DNA of 64,000 nucleotides from Caulobacter sp. 602-2 (GTDB lineage: Bacteria; Pseudomonadota; Alphaproteobacteria; Caulobacterales; Caulobacteraceae), in assembly GCF_011043625.1 (NCBI RefSeq), contig NZ_JAAKGT010000006.1:62001-126000 (forward strand). Reading direction: 5' to 3'. Every line of letters starts with the position of its first letter. Within the stretch, counting starts at the first letter, position 1. Of the stretch, positions 11,421 to 17,159 are shown piece by piece. Both the position numbers and the translations under genes were made by a program. A model generated the notes under the pieces. The model was not told where the DNA came from. It ran no database searches and worked only from the letters and a program-made list of their open reading frames with translations.

Positions 11421-12425
11421 CTACCCCTTGCGCGCCAGGCGGATCACGCCGTCTTCGCCTTCGCTGACGCGCACCGGGAAGGTGTGGGTGACGGCGGTGA
11501 CGAAGGCCATGGGTTCGGTGCTCTGGAAGTAGCCGGCCAGACGCAGGTCGGCGATCGATGGGTCGGCGATGCGCACCTTGCGGCGGTTGTAGCGGTTGAA
11601 CTCGGCCACGGCCTGGCTCAGCGACTGGCCGTTCAGCGCGATGGCGCCCTGGCGCCAGGCCAGGGCCCGGTCGATCTCGGCGTCCGACAGCGGCTGGGCG
11701 TGGCTGCCGCCCGGGCCGTAGACCATGGCCGTTCCGGCCGCGACCTTGGTCTCCCTGGCGGGGCCGTCGCCGTCGGGCTCGACCTGAGCGGCGCCGCGGC
11801 GCACGGTGACGGCGGCGTTCTCGGCGCCCAGGCGGACGGAAAGCTCGCCGCCGGTGGTGGCGATGCGGGCGTCGCGGGCCTTGACCACGAAGGGGCGCGC
11901 GTCGGCGGCGGCCTCGAACAGGGCCTCGCCCTTGACCAGCTTCACCTCGCGCACGCCGCCGCGATAACGCACCACGACCTTGCTGTCGGTGTTGAGCTCG
12001 ATGCGGCTGTTGTCGGCCAGCACCACGACGCGGCGCTCGCCGATGTCGGTGGCGTAGGCGGTCGAGGCGGTGGCGGTCATCACGCCGGTCCCGACCACGC
12101 CGGCGACGGCGGCCAGCGCGGCCATCATCGTCCAGGGCGAGCGGCGGTCGAAGGCGCGGCGGGGCGCGTCTTCCGGCGCGAGGAGGTCGGCGTCGGGCTT
12201 GGCGCCCGAGGCCAGGCCGCCGGGCTTGAAGGCGCGCAGGCGCTCGGTCCGCTCCCAGGCGGCGTGCTCGCGCTCGAACGCGGCCTCGTGCTCGAAGCTT
12301 TCGGCGCGCCAGGCCTCGAAGGCCGCGCGCACGTCAGACGCGCAGGCGGGATCGGACAGCCGCACCGCCCATTCGGCGGCGGCCGCTCTTACCGCTTCGC
12401 GTCGCGATCCCGCTTCCCGGCCCAT
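11421..12425 (-). CDS. FecR-family anti-sigma factor / iron-type sensor
   Basis: A 334-residue FecR-like membrane protein that would relay a signal from the TonB receptor to the ECF sigma factor. The N-terminal cytoplasmic part carries the DUF4880-like anti-sigma segment (AAAEWAVRLSD, FEAWRAESFEHEAAFER). A single transmembrane helix lies near residues 100-120 (MMAALAAVAGVVGTGVMTA). The periplasmic FecR domain follows (IGERRVVVLADNSRIELNTDS, VKLVKGEALFEA), then a C-terminal STN-like segment (LSQAVAEFNRYNRRKVRIAD). I chose ATG 12425, which overlaps the sigma gene by 37 bp; an in-frame extension upstream reads through unrelated sequence. The tight overlap argues for co-translation with the sigma factor. 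Confidence 0.92.
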   Translation of the reverse strand: MGREAGSRREAVRAAAAEWAVRLSDPACASDVRAAFEAWRAESFEHEAAFEREHAAWERTERLRAFKPGGLASGAKPDADLLAPEDAPRRAFDRRSPWTMMAALAAVAGVVGTGVMTATASTAYATDIGERRVVVLADNSRIELNTDSKVVVRYRGGVREVKLVKGEALFEAAADARPFVVKARDARIATTGGELSVRLGAENAAVTVRRGAAQVEPDGDGPARETKVAAGTAMVYGPGGSHAQPLSDAEIDRALAWRQGAIALNGQSLSQAVAEFNRYNRRKVRIADPSIADLRLAGYFQSTEPMAFVTAVTHTFPVRVSEGEDGVIRLARKG

Positions 12426-12982
12426 GAACGCCCTTCGTCGATACGCACTGGTTGGGTCGCGCCCGCGCGGCCCAGCTTTTCGGAACAATAGCGAAGCCCC
12501 TTGATCAGGTGCTTCTCGACTGTTGAGACGGACAAGCCCATGCGGACCGCTATCTCGCCCGGTGAAAGGCTATAGACTTTCCTCAGGGTGAATACACGCC
12601 GACATTGTGTCGGCAGTTCCGATATCGCCTCGCGAAGCTGGCGAAGTTCGTCGCGCGAGACCAGCGTGGCCTCGGGGCCGGGGGTCTCGTCCATGCCGCC
12701 GATCAGCTCGAAGTCGGCGACGGCGGTGATGGTCAGCACCTTGCGGCGGCGCAGGCCGTCGAAGGCCACGTTGCGCAGGGTGCGAGAGGCGAAGGCGGCC
12801 GGGTTGGTGATCTCGCGCCAGGTCTTGCAGGCGATCACGCGGGTGAAGGCGTCGTGGACCAGATCCTCCGGATCGGCCTCGCCGTCGCGGCAGAACTTGC
12901 GCGCATAGGCCAGAAGCCTGGGCTCCAGGGGCAGGATCTCCCTCCGGAACCAGGCGCGCCGCTCTTCGTCGTCTGCTGTCAT
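12389..12982 (-). CDS. ECF RNA polymerase sigma factor, FecI-like
   Basis: A 197-residue extracytoplasmic-function sigma factor. Region 2 is seen in LLAYARKFCRDGEADPEDLVHDAFTRV (quoted here as two blocks, AYARKFCRDG and DPEDLVHDAFTRV) and the -10 binding helix near residues 60-80. Region 4 is CRRVFTLRKVYSLSPGEIA followed by the helix-turn-helix LSVSTVEKHLIKGL. It lies first in the sigma-fecR-receptor order and overlaps fecR by 37 bp, the usual arrangement for surface signalling. The ATG at 12982 starts a typical acidic N-terminus (MTADDEER). The upstream 209 bp to the UdgX gene must contain its promoter. Confidence 0.93.
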   Translation of the reverse strand: MTADDEERRAWFRREILPLEPRLLAYARKFCRDGEADPEDLVHDAFTRVIACKTWREITNPAAFASRTLRNVAFDGLRRRKVLTITAVADFELIGGMDETPGPEATLVSRDELRQLREAISELPTQCRRVFTLRKVYSLSPGEIAVRMGLSVSTVEKHLIKGLRYCSEKLGRAGATQPVRIDEGRSWAGKRDRDAKR

Positions 12983-13191
12983 CGCCCTCTTCCCCGGCCG
13001 GGAACCAACCCTGGCAGCGCCGTCGTGGCAAGAGGCGAACGGCGCCCCGGGCGGCGGGGAGGGCTTATGCGCCCGGTTCCGGCCGCAAGTATTACGAGGC
13101 GGGGCAAGGGATTGCGCCGCAGAGAGCGACGCCGAAAGTTTGAGCAGATTTTTTGCGCGCGGCGCTCGCCAGGCGGGCGGCTTTGCTCGCT

Positions 13192-14637
13192 TCAGTCGAT
13201 CAGTTTTGCGAGCTCGCCCGCAAGGCGCAGGTCGCCGACGAATTCGGCGCGGGCCCGTTCGCGTGCGTCGGCGTCGGGCAGGCGCAGCAGGAACGAGGGG
13301 TGATAGGTGACGACCAGTTGGGCCTGGCCGCCGCCTTGATCCGGCAGTTGCAGCGGCCGGCCGCGGCTTTCGCCCACCGGCGCAGCCTTGCCCGTCACCG
13401 CCAGGGCCGCCGTCGCGCCCAGGGCGACGATCACGCGGGGGCGCACCAGCCGCCGCTCGGCGTCGAGCCACCAGCGGCAGGCCGTGACCTCGCCGCGATC
13501 GGGGGTCTTGTGGATCCGCCGCTTGCCGCGCGGCTCGTGCTTGAAGTGCTTGACCGCGTTGGTGACGAAGGTGCGATCGCGCGGCACGCCGGCCTCTTTC
13601 AGCGCCGCCTCGAACACCTGGCCGGCGGGGCCGACGAAGGGCAGGCCGGCCAGGTCTTCCTGGTCGCCTGGCTGTTCGCCGACGAACATCAGCGGAGCAT
13701 GGGCCGCGCCTTGCCCGGGCACGGCCTGGGTGGCGTCGCGCCACAGCGCGCACCGGCGGCAGACCTGGGCGGCGGCGGCGACCTCGTCGAGGCTGGTCGG
13801 CAGGTCGCCGTTGTAGGCCCCGTCGCGCGCGTGGCGCAGGGCGGCCTTCAGCACCCGGTCGGGCGGCGGGGAGGGCGTAGCGGCGACCATGGCGGCTGCG
13901 CGCGCCTGGGCGGTCTCGACCAGTTCCGGAATAAGCCGCGCCTCGGGCAGGTTGCGCCAGTACCGCTTGGGCATCTCCTGGCGCATCATCCGCTCGTTCA
14001 GCCGCGCGGGGTTGAAGATCGAGGCGTAGTAGGTGCGCCAGAGCTCTTCCTGGGCGTCTTCGGACGGCGCGTCGGCTGGATCGGCGCCTTCGGAGACCTT
14101 CAGCGTCTGGCCGTCCCAGGCCACGCAGGCGTCGGGCGTCAGGATCGTCCAGGTCATGTTGGTGAAGCGGCGGGCGAAGAACGGCGCGGCGGCTTCGGTG
14201 ACGCGATGGGCCGGCTCGAACCAGGCGGCGTAGGTCTCGGGCTCGGTCTCGACGAGGCGAAAGCGCACGAAGGCGTGCATCTTGTGGATCGCGCGGGCCA
14301 CGGCCTTCTGCATGTCGCGCGCCCGGGCCATGTCGGGATCGGCGGGGTTCTCGATCAGCCGCGGCTCGCGCTCCAGCCGCCACAGCAGCCGATAGAGCAG
14401 GGAAAAGCGCTCGCCGGAACGGTGCAGGACCACCGACCGGGCGAGGTCGACGAAGGCCGGCGGGACGGTGAAGGCCCCGGCGGCGGGGGAGGGCGTCTCG
14501 ACCGGTGCGGCTTCGAAAAGGTCGGCCTCGACCGTCCAGAGCACCGCATCGGGCGCGACGCCCTCGGCGCGCAGCCGCCGCGCGGCCGTCCGCCAGCCGT
14601 CGAAGTCGATCTCGGAAGAAAGCCGCACCACCCGCAT
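13192..14637 (-). CDS. DUF4130-UdgX fusion: DNA-repair protein with uracil-DNA glycosylase-like domain
   Basis: A 481-residue two-domain protein. The N-terminal part (about residues 1-260) matches the DUF4130 / TIGR03915 putative DNA-repair domain (DMQKAVARAIHKMHAFVRFR, EPAHRVTEAAAPFFARRF). The C-terminal part (about 280-481) is a family 4-like uracil-DNA glycosylase of the UdgX type. It has the cluster-ligand motif CRRCALW, the active-site G320-E-Q-P-G-D325-Q-E-D and the UdgX-specific loop KRRIHKTP with His at 376. In characterised UdgX that His forms a covalent bond with DNA at uracil. Its start codon overlaps the radical SAM stop by one base (TGATG), so the two are translationally coupled. 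Confidence 0.92.
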   Translation of the reverse strand: MRVVRLSSEIDFDGWRTAARRLRAEGVAPDAVLWTVEADLFEAAPVETPSPAAGAFTVPPAFVDLARSVVLHRSGERFSLLYRLLWRLEREPRLIENPADPDMARARDMQKAVARAIHKMHAFVRFRLVETEPETYAAWFEPAHRVTEAAAPFFARRFTNMTWTILTPDACVAWDGQTLKVSEGADPADAPSEDAQEELWRTYYASIFNPARLNERMMRQEMPKRYWRNLPEARLIPELVETAQARAAAMVAATPSPPPDRVLKAALRHARDGAYNGDLPTSLDEVAAAAQVCRRCALWRDATQAVPGQGAAHAPLMFVGEQPGDQEDLAGLPFVGPAGQVFEAALKEAGVPRDRTFVTNAVKHFKHEPRGKRRIHKTPDRGEVTACRWWLDAERRLVRPRVIVALGATAALAVTGKAAPVGESRGRPLQLPDQGGGQAQLVVTYHPSFLLRLPDADARERARAEFVGDLRLAGELAKLID

Positions 14638-15857
14638 CAGAACAGGCTCAGTTGGGCCGGTTCGACCAAGCGGGCCTTCAGGTGCTGGCCGTCGGTCGCC
14701 GCGCCCGGCGTCCAGCCCTCGGCGACGACGAAGGCCTGGGCCCGCTTGACCACGGCGCCCACGCGCCTCAGGTCGTCCATCGTCAACCGCGCCTGCCTGC
14801 GGGCCGCGAGGATGCGGTCGACGGCCTTGGCGCCCAGGCCCGGCACGCGCAGCAGGGTCTCGCGGTCGGCGGTGTTGACGTCGACGGGGAACCTGTCGCG
14901 GTTTCGCAGGGCCCAGGCGGTCTTGGGATCGACCGACAGGTCCAGATCCTCGCCTTCGCCGATGATCTCGGGCTGGGCGAAGCCGTAGAACCGCATCAGC
15001 CAGTCGGCCTGGTAGAGGCGGTGTTCGCGCAGCAGCGGCGGCCGGCTGGAGGGCAGGCGGCGGCTGGCGTCCGGGATCGGGCTGAAGGCCGAGTAGTAGA
15101 CGCGGCTGAGGCGATAGGCGCCGTACAGCGAGGCGCTGCGGGCCAGGATGTCGCCGTCGCTGGCCGCGTCGGCGCCGACGATCAGCTGGGTCGACTGGCT
15201 GCGGGCGAAGGTCTTGCGCGGCGCCTTGCGGGCCGGCTCGGCGCGCTCGTCGATGGCCAGGCGCATGCGGCCCATGGCCCGCTTGATGTCGCCGACGTCC
15301 TTCTCAGGGGCCAGGGACTTCAGGCTGTCGTCGCGGGGCAGCTCGATGTTGATCGACACCCGGTCGGCGTAGAGCCCGGCCTCGGCGGCCAGTTCCGGCG
15401 AGGCCTCTGGGATGAGTTTCAGGTGGATGTAGCCCCGGAAGTCGTGGTCCAGCCGCAGGCTTTTGGCGATGCGGACCATCTCTTCCATCGTGTAGTCGCC
15501 GCTCTGGATCACGCCCGACGACAGGAACAAGCCCTCGATGTAGTTGCGCTTGTAGAAGTTGAGGGTGAGGTCGACGACCTCCTTCACCGAGAACCGCGCG
15601 CGCGGCGTGTTCGACGACACCCGGTTGATGCAGTAGGCGCAGTCGTAGATGCAGAAGTTGGTCAGCAGGATCTTCAAGAGGCTGATGCAGCGTCCATCCG
15701 GCGCGTAGGCGTGGCAGATGCCCATGCCCTCGGTGGAGCCGACGCCCTTGCCGCCGACCGAGTCGCGTTTTTCGCCCCCCGAGGAGGCGCAGGAAGCGTC
15801 GTACTTGGCGGCGTCGGCGAGAATGGCGAGCTTGCGGCGGATATCGAGAACGGCCAT
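14637..15857 (-). CDS. Putative DNA modification/repair radical SAM protein (TIGR03916-like)
   Basis: A 406-residue radical SAM enzyme with the 4Fe-4S ligand motif C69-IYD-C73-AY-C76. A Gly-rich N-terminal block (GEKRDSVGGKGVGSTEGMGI) precedes it and is typical of this family. The C-terminal 80 residues carry a helix-hairpin-helix of ComEA type (DVNTADRETLLRVPGLGAKA), a DNA-binding fold. The reaction is unknown. The family nearly always sits next to the DUF4130/UdgX gene, as here, where its TGA overlaps the next ATG. ATG 15857 is preferred over a GTG two codons upstream. It is divergent from a small gene starting at 15970. Confidence 0.92.
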   Translation of the reverse strand: MAVLDIRRKLAILADAAKYDASCASSGGEKRDSVGGKGVGSTEGMGICHAYAPDGRCISLLKILLTNFCIYDCAYCINRVSSNTPRARFSVKEVVDLTLNFYKRNYIEGLFLSSGVIQSGDYTMEEMVRIAKSLRLDHDFRGYIHLKLIPEASPELAAEAGLYADRVSINIELPRDDSLKSLAPEKDVGDIKRAMGRMRLAIDERAEPARKAPRKTFARSQSTQLIVGADAASDGDILARSASLYGAYRLSRVYYSAFSPIPDASRRLPSSRPPLLREHRLYQADWLMRFYGFAQPEIIGEGEDLDLSVDPKTAWALRNRDRFPVDVNTADRETLLRVPGLGAKAVDRILAARRQARLTMDDLRRVGAVVKRAQAFVVAEGWTPGAATDGQHLKARLVEPAQLSLF

Positions 15858-15969
15858 CCGCACAGTCTATAGTTCTCATTTTGTTCCGTCGAGTTGCGCG
15901 GTGTCGCACCTTGGCGCGGAACCGGGCGAGGGCCTCGCGCGATCCCCTTGCAGGCAAGGGAGTTCCGCC

Positions 15970-16260
15970 ATGGCGCGCCGCAAGGAAGACTGGCCCTCGA
16001 CGATGCTGGACGCCTGGGCGCTGGGCATGGAGGCCTCGGCCGTCATCAGCCTGCGGACCCTGGTGCTGGCCGGCGGCGGGGCCAGGGCCCAGGCCGAAGC
16101 GGTGCGCATGACCACCGAGAAGGTGGCAGCCGCCGCCGACATCGGCCTGCAGTTCTGGACCGGCGGCCTGCCGCAGGCGCCCGACGCGGCGACCCGCGCG
16201 GTGGTGAAGCGCTATCGCGCCAAGGTGCGGGCCAACCGCAAGCGGCTGGGCGGCTTCTAG
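15970..16260 (+). CDS. Small alpha-helical protein, phasin-like or so-called antifreeze family
   Basis: A 96-residue protein with a long amphipathic helical middle (LGMEASAVISLRTLVLAGGG, then AQAEAVRMTTEKVAAAADIG) and a basic C-terminus (VVKRYRAKVRANRKRLGGF). It resembles small alphaproteobacterial proteins annotated as antifreeze or phasin-like proteins, whose true function is not established. ATG at 15970 follows AAGGGAG. Its TAG stop shares the tetranucleotide CTAG with the stop of the convergent LysR gene, so the two genes overlap by 3 bp. Confidence 0.75.
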   Translation: MARRKEDWPSTMLDAWALGMEASAVISLRTLVLAGGGARAQAEAVRMTTEKVAAAADIGLQFWTGGLPQAPDAATRAVVKRYRAKVRANRKRLGGF

Positions 16261-17159
16261 GCGGCGATCATCAGTTCGGCGGCCAGGAAGTCGACCAGGG
16301 CGCGCACCTTGGGCGTCAGCAGTCGGTTGGACGGCCAGACGACGCGGAACATCCCCGTGCTCTTCAGGAACGGCTCGAGCACGCAGACCAGAGCGCCCGA
16401 CGCCAGCTGCGCGCGCACCGAGAACAGCGGCACGCAGGTGACGCCCTGGCCCTGTTCGGCCAGGTAGATCAGGGGCTCCAGCGTGCTGGCCGTCACGGCC
16501 GTGGGCAGACCGTCGCCGACGAAGACATCGTCGCGATAGAGCGGCCAGCGCTCCAGCTTGCCGGTCGAGGGATAGCGGTGCTGCAGGCAGGCGTGGCCCG
16601 CCAGGTCCTCGGGCGAGCGGGGCGTTCCGTGACGTTCGAAATAGGCGGGCGAACCCACCACGCGATGTTCGAACGCGCCGAGCGAGCGCGTCATCAGGCG
16701 GGAATCGGAGACCTCGCCCGTGCGGACGACGGCGTCGAAGCCCTCCTCGATGACGTCGACGATGCGGTCGGTGAAATCCAGGTCGAGCTCGATCTGCGGA
16801 TAGGCCCGCATGAACGCCGACAGGGTGGGCATCAGCAGCATGCCGACCAGCGGGAAGCTGACGCGCAGGCGGCCGCGCGGCGCTTCCCGCGAGGCCGAAA
16901 GCTCGCCCGTCAGCGCGTCGATCTCGGCGAAGATCCGCCGGCAGCGGTCCAGCAGCAGGCCGCCCTCGGCGGTCAGCGCCACCGACCGCGTGCTGCGATG
17001 AAAGAGGCGCGTTCCAAGCTGGGCCTCCAGGCGCGCGATCGCCTTGCCCACCGCCGAGGGCGACACGCCCAGGCGGCTGGCGGCGCCGGTGAAGCTGCGG
17101 GTTTCGGTGACCCGAACGAAGACGTTGAGAGCGCCCAGGCTGTCCATGGCGAGATCCAT
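16257..17159 (-). CDS. LysR-family transcriptional regulator
   Basis: A 300-residue LysR regulator. The winged HTH occupies residues 1-65 (FVRVTETRSFTGAASRLGVS, PSAVGKAIARLEAQLGTRLF). The remainder is the LysR substrate-binding fold of the small-ligand type (GRLRVSFPLVG, IVDVIEEGFDAVVRTGEV). ATG 17159 gives a usual LysR N-terminus; a further in-frame ATG is at 17147 and longer upstream starts look unlikely. It is divergent from the monooxygenase-like gene and MFS transporter at 17271-18787, the likely targets. A perfect palindrome lies directly upstream at 17162-17177. Confidence 0.92.
   Translation of the reverse strand: MDLAMDSLGALNVFVRVTETRSFTGAASRLGVSPSAVGKAIARLEAQLGTRLFHRSTRSVALTAEGGLLLDRCRRIFAEIDALTGELSASREAPRGRLRVSFPLVGMLLMPTLSAFMRAYPQIELDLDFTDRIVDVIEEGFDAVVRTGEVSDSRLMTRSLGAFEHRVVGSPAYFERHGTPRSPEDLAGHACLQHRYPSTGKLERWPLYRDDVFVGDGLPTAVTASTLEPLIYLAEQGQGVTCVPLFSVRAQLASGALVCVLEPFLKSTGMFRVVWPSNRLLTPKVRALVDFLAAELMIAA

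Follow-up and report, generated by a model that had tools for sequence, protein, structure and literature searches.

Gene content of the locus

The locus lies within a 64,000-nucleotide stretch of DNA from Caulobacter sp. 602-2 (hereafter, the window) and comprises two genes on the same strand: the first encodes a radical SAM/HhH protein and the second a protein in which DUF4130 (TIGR03915) is fused to UdgX (TIGR03914) (Table 1). The two reading frames meet at TGATG, with the start codon of the DUF4130-UdgX gene inside the radical SAM stop codon and an overlap of one base. An alternative ATG start at 15857 would give a radical SAM protein of 406 aa (14637-15857), and its cysteines are numbered from this ATG.

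Table 1 Features of the operon in the window
Feature	Position	Strand	Remarks
Predicted LexA box GAACAAAATGAGAAC	15872..15886	(-)	GAAC-N7-GAAC, alphaproteobacterial type; conserved in related loci
Radical SAM/HhH protein (TIGR03916) gene	14637..15863	(-)	GTG start at 15863 (408 aa)
Second cysteine set, C23, C48, C57	15687..15791	(-)	Invariant in 61/61 aligned sequences
CxxxCxxC radical SAM cluster motif, C69-C73-C76	15630..15653	(-)	Invariant in 61/61 aligned sequences, window included
Candidate beta-sliding-clamp binding motif QLSLF	14640..14654	(-)	Last five residues of the radical SAM protein
DUF4130-UdgX fusion gene	13192..14637	(-)	481 aa
DUF4130/TIGR03915 domain	13939..14613	(-)	aa 9-233; 220.8 bits (cut-off 112.25)
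UdgX domain	13222..13935	(-)	aa 235-472; TIGR03914, 313.4 bits (cut-off 189.95)

The window copy exceeds the cut-offs of all three NCBIfam families, TIGR03914/15/16, and has the same gene order; nothing that we found sets it apart from other members. The radical SAM protein scored 547.1 bits against TIGR03916 (cut-off 343.5) and 42 bits against Pfam Radical_SAM (above the cut-off of 29.5), while its HhH matched HHH_3 at 25.6 bits, slightly under the Pfam cut-off of 27. DUF4130 and UDG in the fusion protein were both above their Pfam cut-offs. These assignments bear out the identities (UdgX, DUF4130 and radical SAM) given to the genes in an earlier note on this DNA, and the one-base coupling and the residues that it had named as intact (C69, C73, C76, GEQPGD from 320 and H376) were also confirmed. 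The cysteines C23, C48 and C57, the C-terminal QLSLF and the LexA box went unmentioned there. A search for RNA families across positions 12500-16500 of the window gave no match.

LexA boxes upstream of the operon

The predicted LexA box is separated by 8 bases from the GTG start of the radical SAM gene and by 14 from the ATG. Within the window alone the pattern was not significant (three found versus 1.27 expected from shuffling). Upstream of related loci, the alphaproteobacterial box was present in 71/77, 39/41 and 20/25 cases compared to 7/3871, 2/734 and 2/455 control windows, although these counts, and those for the clamp motif and the UdgX R-loop given below, are not independent because some genomes belong to both collections. 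In the phylum sample, every one of the 20 loci from the same class carried this box, and CTGT-N8-ACAG was found at 3 of the 5 from other classes (control, 2/455 windows) and at 2 of 6 further beta/gamma loci (control, 0/243). Outside Pseudomonadota, or at loci without an assignment, GAAC-N4-GTTC occurred in 2/10 (control, 1/294). No box of the tested types was found at the other eight of these ten loci, at four of the six beta/gamma loci or at loci L054 and L002.

In our reading, the TIGR03914/15/16 system corresponds to the COG1573-COG4277 pair described in PMC8565304. SOS control of the radical SAM/DUF4130-UdgX pair is already in print, in passages of PMC8565304 and also of PMC3828012. A search by term of PMC13384398 and PMC9380542 returned nothing on the pair, save for an unspecified radical SAM gene in a Streptomyces list.

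The radical SAM protein and its cysteines

The radical SAM protein contains exactly six cysteines, at positions 23, 48, 57, 69, 73 and 76. The C23/C48/C57 set was kept in 16 of the 17 sequences of a broader alignment, the 17th being a sibling under the family cut-off, and its three residues are possible ligands of an auxiliary Fe-S cluster. Matches to other families were all weak. The nearest were ThiH (17/17 members), HydE (13), MqnE, CofG/CofH and LipS1, and the spore photoproduct lyase (SPL) model was absent among the 25 of 32 families listed for the radical SAM members. The AlphaFold2 model of the protein (mean pLDDT 83.9, pTM 0.84, with low confidence at residues 27-60) was also compared to solved structures. 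Among the matches listed, the best was LipA 4u0o (Z 17.5, rmsd 3.4, 224 residues aligned, 12% identity), tied with HydE 7o1o (Z 17.0, rmsd 3.0, 214 aligned), and SPL was not among the 50 listed. This fold is common to many radical SAM enzymes.

Two specific identities were considered and rejected. LipA has a second set of three cysteines N-terminal to its SAM cluster, with the spacing CX4CX5C; the spacing here is CX24CX8C, and lipoyl synthase was set aside on this ground. The hydrogen-donor cysteine of SPL lies C-terminal to CxxxCxxC, and the window protein, which has no cysteine beyond C76, was not accepted as an SPL for that reason. SplB likewise belongs to the radical SAM superfamily and has DNA as its presumed substrate, and splB is under SOS control in several species (PMC8565304); the window protein differs from it in carrying HhH and a clamp motif as well as in its missing cysteine. 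A related proposal is that the radical SAM protein is a SplB-like photolyase reversing a thymine photoproduct, with DUF4130 and UdgX assisting. The absent donor cysteine and the ThiH/HydE-type kinship, weak as it is, make this improbable, even though UV damage would be compatible with SOS control and a passage in PMC3765255 labels the partners 'SplB-like radical SAM photolyases'.

A candidate clamp-binding motif at the C terminus

The last residues of the radical SAM protein fit the consensus QL[S/D]LF for binding to the beta sliding clamp (PMC3716654). A motif of this type was found within the last 12 residues at 123/131 loci (including the window's own locus and a remnant in genome G182), compared to 3/2563 and 5/4537 in the controls. 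Seven of the eight loci without the pattern have a variant at the end or 20-39 residues before it, and the eighth is cut by a contig end; the variants recognized by eye (QLSIF, QLSMF, QLSFF, QLSLW, QPRLL and QPDLF) were counted as misses in the 123/131. In the broad alignment the motif glutamine was invariant (17/17), and the 25 residues that precede it vary. Because pLDDT fell below 50 at residues 402-406 of the AlphaFold2 model, the QLSLF tail is probably flexible. From the motif, we infer that the protein may be recruited to the clamp through QLSLF; a QLxLF-type tail can also exist without function. Both the clamp motif and the second cysteine set are family-wide features of the TIGR03914/15/16 system and not specific to the window.

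Translesion polymerases share the combination of SOS control and a clamp motif (for example, UmuC with QLNLF; PMC3716654), and DUF4130 is termed a 'predicted mutagenesis-related enzyme' in a passage of PMC3765255. It is nonetheless unlikely that the pair is a mutagenesis factor, that is, a clamp-bound partner of a translesion polymerase that alters bases for successful bypass: profiles from NCBIfam and Pfam revealed no polymerase domain in either protein, and imuA, imuB and dnaE2 were not beside the pair in the eight of fifteen retrieved records that are annotated.

The DUF4130-UdgX fusion protein

The fusion protein was modeled by AlphaFold2 with a mean pLDDT of 93.7 and a pTM of 0.63. Its UdgX half carries the published signature of GEQPG, KRRIH with the nucleophile histidine and HPS(S/A)(L/V)(L/V)R (PMC10359453), as motif A at 320-324, the R-loop KRRIH with nucleophile H376 and motif B HPSFLLR at 446-452, the one deviation being F in place of S/A. 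This deviation is common among fused relatives, where the residue is mostly Y (63/110). The nucleophile histidine was found in all 110 fused frames (100 by pattern and 10 by eye) and GEQPG in 107 by pattern, the pattern having matched another string first in the other three. The UdgX structure 6l6s aligned to this half over 202 residues with 54% identity (VIA-align Z 31.8, rmsd 1.6), and phmmer matched the domain to 8iie at 7.1e-57. UdgX from Mycobacterium smegmatis shares GEQPG, KRRIH and HPSxLLR, whereas the window UdgX is fused behind DUF4130. By analogy with characterized proteins, the UdgX half can probably cap damaged DNA covalently.

HMCES attaches covalently to an abasic site through its N-terminal cysteine. 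HMCES/SRAP is in this sense an analogous SOS-associated protein joined to an abasic site, the nucleophile in UdgX being a loop histidine (PMC10359453); a passage in PMC3765255 describes the link between SRAP and SOS.

Profile searches with DUF4130 alone gave nothing convincing: over 21 members, matches to other Pfam families reached E 0.042 at best, and solved structures yielded one match, at E 0.29. Using the fused model, only UDG-type proteins were found among the 50 PDB matches listed, which the UdgX half filled, and mostly UDG and polymerase proteins among the viral matches listed. We infer that DUF4130 may be a shared DNA- or lesion-binding partner.

Pairing of the genes across genomes

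Using curated cut-offs, DUF4130 was found in 39/39 radical-SAM genomes from a phylum sample of 249, in 52/53 from 119 family genomes and in 11/12 from 240 class genomes; these samples overlap, and the counts exclude radical SAM matches under the cut-off (10/22 class genomes and 7/46 phylum genomes, the G182 remnant among them). Among the best 80 of 585 relatives, DUF4130 lay downstream of the radical SAM gene on the same strand at all 80 loci, and UdgX was absent in 12/81 DUF4130 frames (11 loci and one broken-copy frame). Nor did UdgX occur in the retrieved stretch of any of ten other loci, which come from Bacteroidota, Bacillota and Fusobacteriota or, in two cases, from faecal records with no assignment. 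What is conserved at the core is the radical SAM-DUF4130 pair, and it is DUF4130 that accompanies the radical SAM gene steadily, rather than UdgX.

Conversely, the radical SAM gene was absent in 9 of the 17 class-sample genomes with UdgX over the curated cut-off, which was used instead of E 0.001 (at that threshold TIGR03914 matches 229/240 class genomes because related UDGs match). In three genomes (G538, G554 and G319, the last with DUF4130 under the TIGR03915 cut-off), DUF4130-UdgX follows a LexA box and no radical SAM gene was matched; the radical enzyme is therefore not always needed. In two others (G255 and G269) the genes are on separate contigs, and the radical SAM frame of G255 is abnormal. 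The operon of G182 has decayed jointly, leaving a LexA box, the radical SAM remnant, a split DUF4130 and a weak UdgX fragment.

The earlier note had named a lack of linkage of the pair in other genomes as one observation that would refute it, and the linkage holds across the phylum sample and the best 80 loci. A role in DNA damage is likewise supported, as a likely one. Its emphasis on UdgX now appears misplaced in view of the loci that lack this domain, and the system can no longer be called undescribed: NCBIfam has all three families, under names that link them, and SOS control of the pair had been published.

The same distribution bears on another possibility, implied by a test that the earlier note proposed, in which the covalent adduct of UdgX with DNA would be released or processed by the radical SAM protein. 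The overlap of the DUF4130-UdgX fusion with the radical SAM gene and the retention of the nucleophile in every fused frame would suit this, but we consider it very doubtful because radical SAM-DUF4130 loci without UdgX exist; the class-sample genomes with UdgX and no radical SAM gene also argue against it, and a passage of PMC10359453 suggests that the adduct is resolved by a RecA-dependent or protease route. A role other than repair, in which the operon would modify the DNA of its own cell to mark it or to defend the cell, is more improbable still: despite the NCBIfam name 'putative DNA modification/repair' and the occurrence of the gene on plasmids (158 records) and in records labelled as phage (10), neither protein matched any family among 5027 PADLOC defence models (E 0.01), and LexA boxes across several clades better suit a damage response.

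Proposed function

On balance, we lean towards an SOS-regulated operon that handles base lesions at the replication fork, in which a clamp-recruited radical SAM protein acts with DUF4130 and UdgX provides capping. DNA damage would strip LexA from the box before the radical SAM gene, allowing both proteins to be made, a step that we predict because the boxes are conserved in position. The radical SAM protein would hold DNA through its HhH and, judging from the motif, be tethered to the beta clamp by the C-terminal QLSLF. Its SAM cluster, probably with a second three-cysteine cluster, could then perform radical chemistry on the damaged base together with DUF4130; our first guess is direct conversion of a damaged pyrimidine. 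In many Pseudomonadota, the fused UdgX would excise uracil at the site and remain attached to the abasic sugar, capping it, which has been shown for other UdgX proteins and is suggested here by the intact active site. UdgX is most likely an accessory to this module, there to cap abasic sites that derive from uracil.

A more specific version of this fork-associated repair operon is put forward tentatively, as a possibility that we rate below even: a replisome-tethered radical SAM repair enzyme that is SOS-induced, is held on the beta clamp by a C-terminal motif found across phyla, has a second Fe-S site with three cysteines, acts on damaged bases by radical chemistry next to DUF4130, and in many Pseudomonadota hands uracil products directly to a fused UdgX for capping of the abasic site. 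If true, radical repair and covalent capping would be united at the replication fork. The passages of the literature that we consulted make no mention of the clamp motif, the six-cysteine pattern or DUF4130 as the steady partner. These three features make a vague 'repair system' testable, the predictions being that the enzyme binds the clamp, holds two Fe-S clusters and works where forks have stalled.

A paired gene arrangement from a catalogued family

The window copy is intact and ordinary for its family, which is catalogued but uncharacterised. Using curated NCBIfam cut-offs, the radical SAM protein was assigned to TIGR03916 and the 481-residue protein to both TIGR03915 and TIGR03914. Pfam matches to Radical_SAM, DUF4130 and UDG were also above cut-off, with the HhH of the radical SAM protein scoring slightly under. 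The genes share a one-base TGATG overlap that places the DUF4130-UdgX ATG on the stop of the upstream radical SAM gene, and the catalytic residues are intact, those that the earlier note had named as key being found where it had placed them. A LysR regulator lies upstream and an ECF sigma factor with a FecR-type gene, a common signalling arrangement, lies downstream; no tie between these neighbours and the pair was seen.

Coordinates of the pair and adjacent features in the window
Feature	Position	Strand	Remarks
Radical SAM protein gene	14637-15863	minus	408 residues; 406 from ATG at 15857
DUF4130-UdgX gene	13192-14637	minus	481 residues
ECF sigma factor, then FecR-domain gene	11421-13000	minus	Pfam; directly downstream of pair
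LexA box GAACAAAATGAGAAC	15872-15886	minus	alpha-type pattern upstream of radical SAM gene

The earlier note had put the pair forward as its best candidate for an undescribed system, which is not borne out: the NCBIfam model names rSAM_link_UDG and SAM_7_link_chp already connect the families, and both operon and SOS control have been published. We take COG4277 to be the TIGR03916 family. Excerpts of PMC8565304 describe a COG1573-COG4277 operon in Bacteroidetes under SOS-type motifs and cite prior reports from Verrucomicrobia and Alphaproteobacteria, and excerpts of PMC3828012 propose LexA control for Clostridium acetobutylicum CAC3343-CAC3344, the first gene of which carries the TIGR03916 name. 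An excerpt of PMC3765255 labels DUF4130 a 'predicted mutagenesis-related enzyme' and links it both to SplB-like radical SAM proteins and to uracil glycosylases, and a family member in Acinetobacter Tol 5 goes up on drying (PMC13130816, excerpt). The pair draws its interest from features shared across the family, through which function becomes testable, rather than from the window locus.

Linkage across genomes

The pairing proposed in the earlier note holds across genomes, with both genes present in 11/12, 39/39 and 52/53 radical SAM genomes of the class, phylum and family samples, which have some genomes in common. TIGR03915 exceeded its cut-off in 12 of 240 class-sample genomes, as did the radical SAM model; DUF4130 was found in 41 of 249 phylum-sample and 53 of 119 family-sample genomes. 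Exceptions in the class sample were a radical SAM gene ending at a contig edge (G045) and a decayed operon (G182) comprising a LexA box, a C-terminal radical SAM remnant, DUF4130 in two frames and a weak UdgX fragment; in family-sample genome G242, DUF4130 is partial and under cut-off. DUF4130-UdgX lacked a radical SAM match in G538 (locus L191), G554 (L187) and G319 (L194), each preceded by a LexA box, and in G278, where the locus ends at a contig edge. The G319 locus has two LexA boxes and a divergent DUF4130 under the TIGR03915 cut-off. Both genes are present on separate contigs in G255 and G269; in G255 (L195), radical SAM positions 1-265 continue into a 1966-residue open frame, possibly a broken copy, with no Pfam match at E 0.001 beyond the radical SAM part.

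Among the best 80 of 585 relatives, DUF4130 lay downstream on the same strand in 80/80 loci, and its 81 frames included 26 one-base overlaps, 13 four-base overlaps and 9 gaps of >60 bases (maximum 1269). A cytidine/dCMP-deaminase-family gene sits between the two in Fulvimarina (L072 6865-7506) and a hemerythrin-domain gene in Sphingomonas (L139 6694-7149). On an Azospirillum plasmid (L151 1529-7200), the pair has metK (SAM synthesis) on one side and mtnA (methionine salvage) on the other, with CopG and RelE/ParE family genes separating it from mtnA, a setting that may be coincidence.

SOS box

Because the LexA box pattern is no rarer than chance within the window, its support comes from conservation in relatives. 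Searching the 200 bases preceding the KYDxSC motif, we found the alpha-type box conserved in 71/77, 39/41 and 20/25 loci, compared to 7/3871, 2/734 and 2/455 control windows. The five loci without it in the last set are precisely the five outside the class, three of which carry CTGT-N8-ACAG (control windows 2/455), as do 2/6 further beta/gamma loci (0/243). GAAC-N4-GTTC occurred in 2/10 loci outside Pseudomonadota or unassigned (control 1/294), at -69 in Lachnospira and -198 in Pusillibacter; no tested box type was found in the other 8/10, or in 4/6 beta/gamma loci. We infer LexA control of the window copy.

Clamp motif

In the window copy, the last five residues of the radical SAM protein are QLSLF, matching the clamp consensus QL[S/D]LF (PMC3716654, excerpt). 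A clamp-type pattern is conserved within the last 12 residues at 123/131 radical SAM loci, compared to 3/2563 tails of other ORFs, 5/4537 internal windows of the same proteins and 0/141 DUF4130 frames. The eight misses comprise one at a contig end, three ending QPRLL or QPDLF, and four in which QLSIF, QLSLW, QLSMF or QLSFF stands 20-39 residues from the C-terminus; a clamp-like motif was seen by eye in 32/32 later-fetched loci. Its Gln is invariant in a 17-sequence alignment that spans Pseudomonadota, Bacteroidota, Bacillota and Fusobacteriota and also takes in a single unassigned record and a Gemmatimonadota sibling scoring under the family cut-off; the 25 positions ahead of the motif are variable. 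The radical SAM protein is predicted to bind the beta clamp via QLSLF. Among the matches listed for radical SAM with clamp terms, no title or abstract opening concerned the TIGR03916 family.

UdgX as an add-on

UdgX is an add-on to the radical SAM/DUF4130 pair. It is fused in 69/81 DUF4130 frames (best 80 of 585 relatives) and in 0/10 fetched stretches belonging to Bacteroidota, Bacillota or Fusobacteriota or, in two cases, to unassigned faecal records. Seventeen class-sample genomes had UdgX over cut-off, nine without the radical SAM gene and eight with it (seven fused, one separate, in G033). Fused UdgX looks active, since the nucleophile His is kept in 110/110 frames, 100 of them recognised by pattern and 10 read by eye. 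The UdgX half of the AlphaFold2 model aligned with UdgX crystal structures over 202 residues (Z 31.8, rmsd 1.6), and the two halves may move independently of each other, to judge from a low pTM (0.63) alongside a high pLDDT (93.7).

Proposed mechanism

DNA damage would take LexA off the box, so that both proteins are made in step; the clamp-held radical SAM protein would encounter lesions at stalled forks and, jointly with DUF4130, act on these by radical chemistry. Where it is fused, UdgX would excise uracil and remain bonded to the abasic sugar, a capping step matching the protective role proposed for UdgX (PMC10359453, excerpt). We lean slightly towards this overall reading of SOS-induced lesion handling, and consider any specific radical reaction less probable than the whole; the DUF4130 role and UdgX capping are putative.

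Cysteines and radical SAM kinship

The six cysteines of the window radical SAM protein (23, 48, 57, 69, 73 and 76) are invariant in 61/61 aligned sequences, itself included. Cysteines 23, 48 and 57, a putative second iron-sulfur site, lie in a low-confidence region of the structure model. In sequence comparisons the next radical SAM families, each a weak match, were ThiH, HydE, MqnE, CofG/H and LipS1; LipA and HydE shared the top of the structural rows, both with Z about 17. In spore photoproduct lyase, the hydrogen-donor cysteine is located after the CxxxCxxC; the window protein, in contrast, has no cysteine C-terminal to C76 and the 'SplB-like' label is therefore doubtful.

The three extra cysteines are kept in 16/17 sequences of the broader alignment, the sole exception being a radical SAM-HhH sibling on a Gemmatirosa plasmid (L147 2827-4278) with QLSLW near its end and 302.7 bits against the TIGR03916 cut-off of 343.5. 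No DUF4130 was present in the fetched stretch, and this one sequence possibly represents a separate subfamily and a natural contrast.
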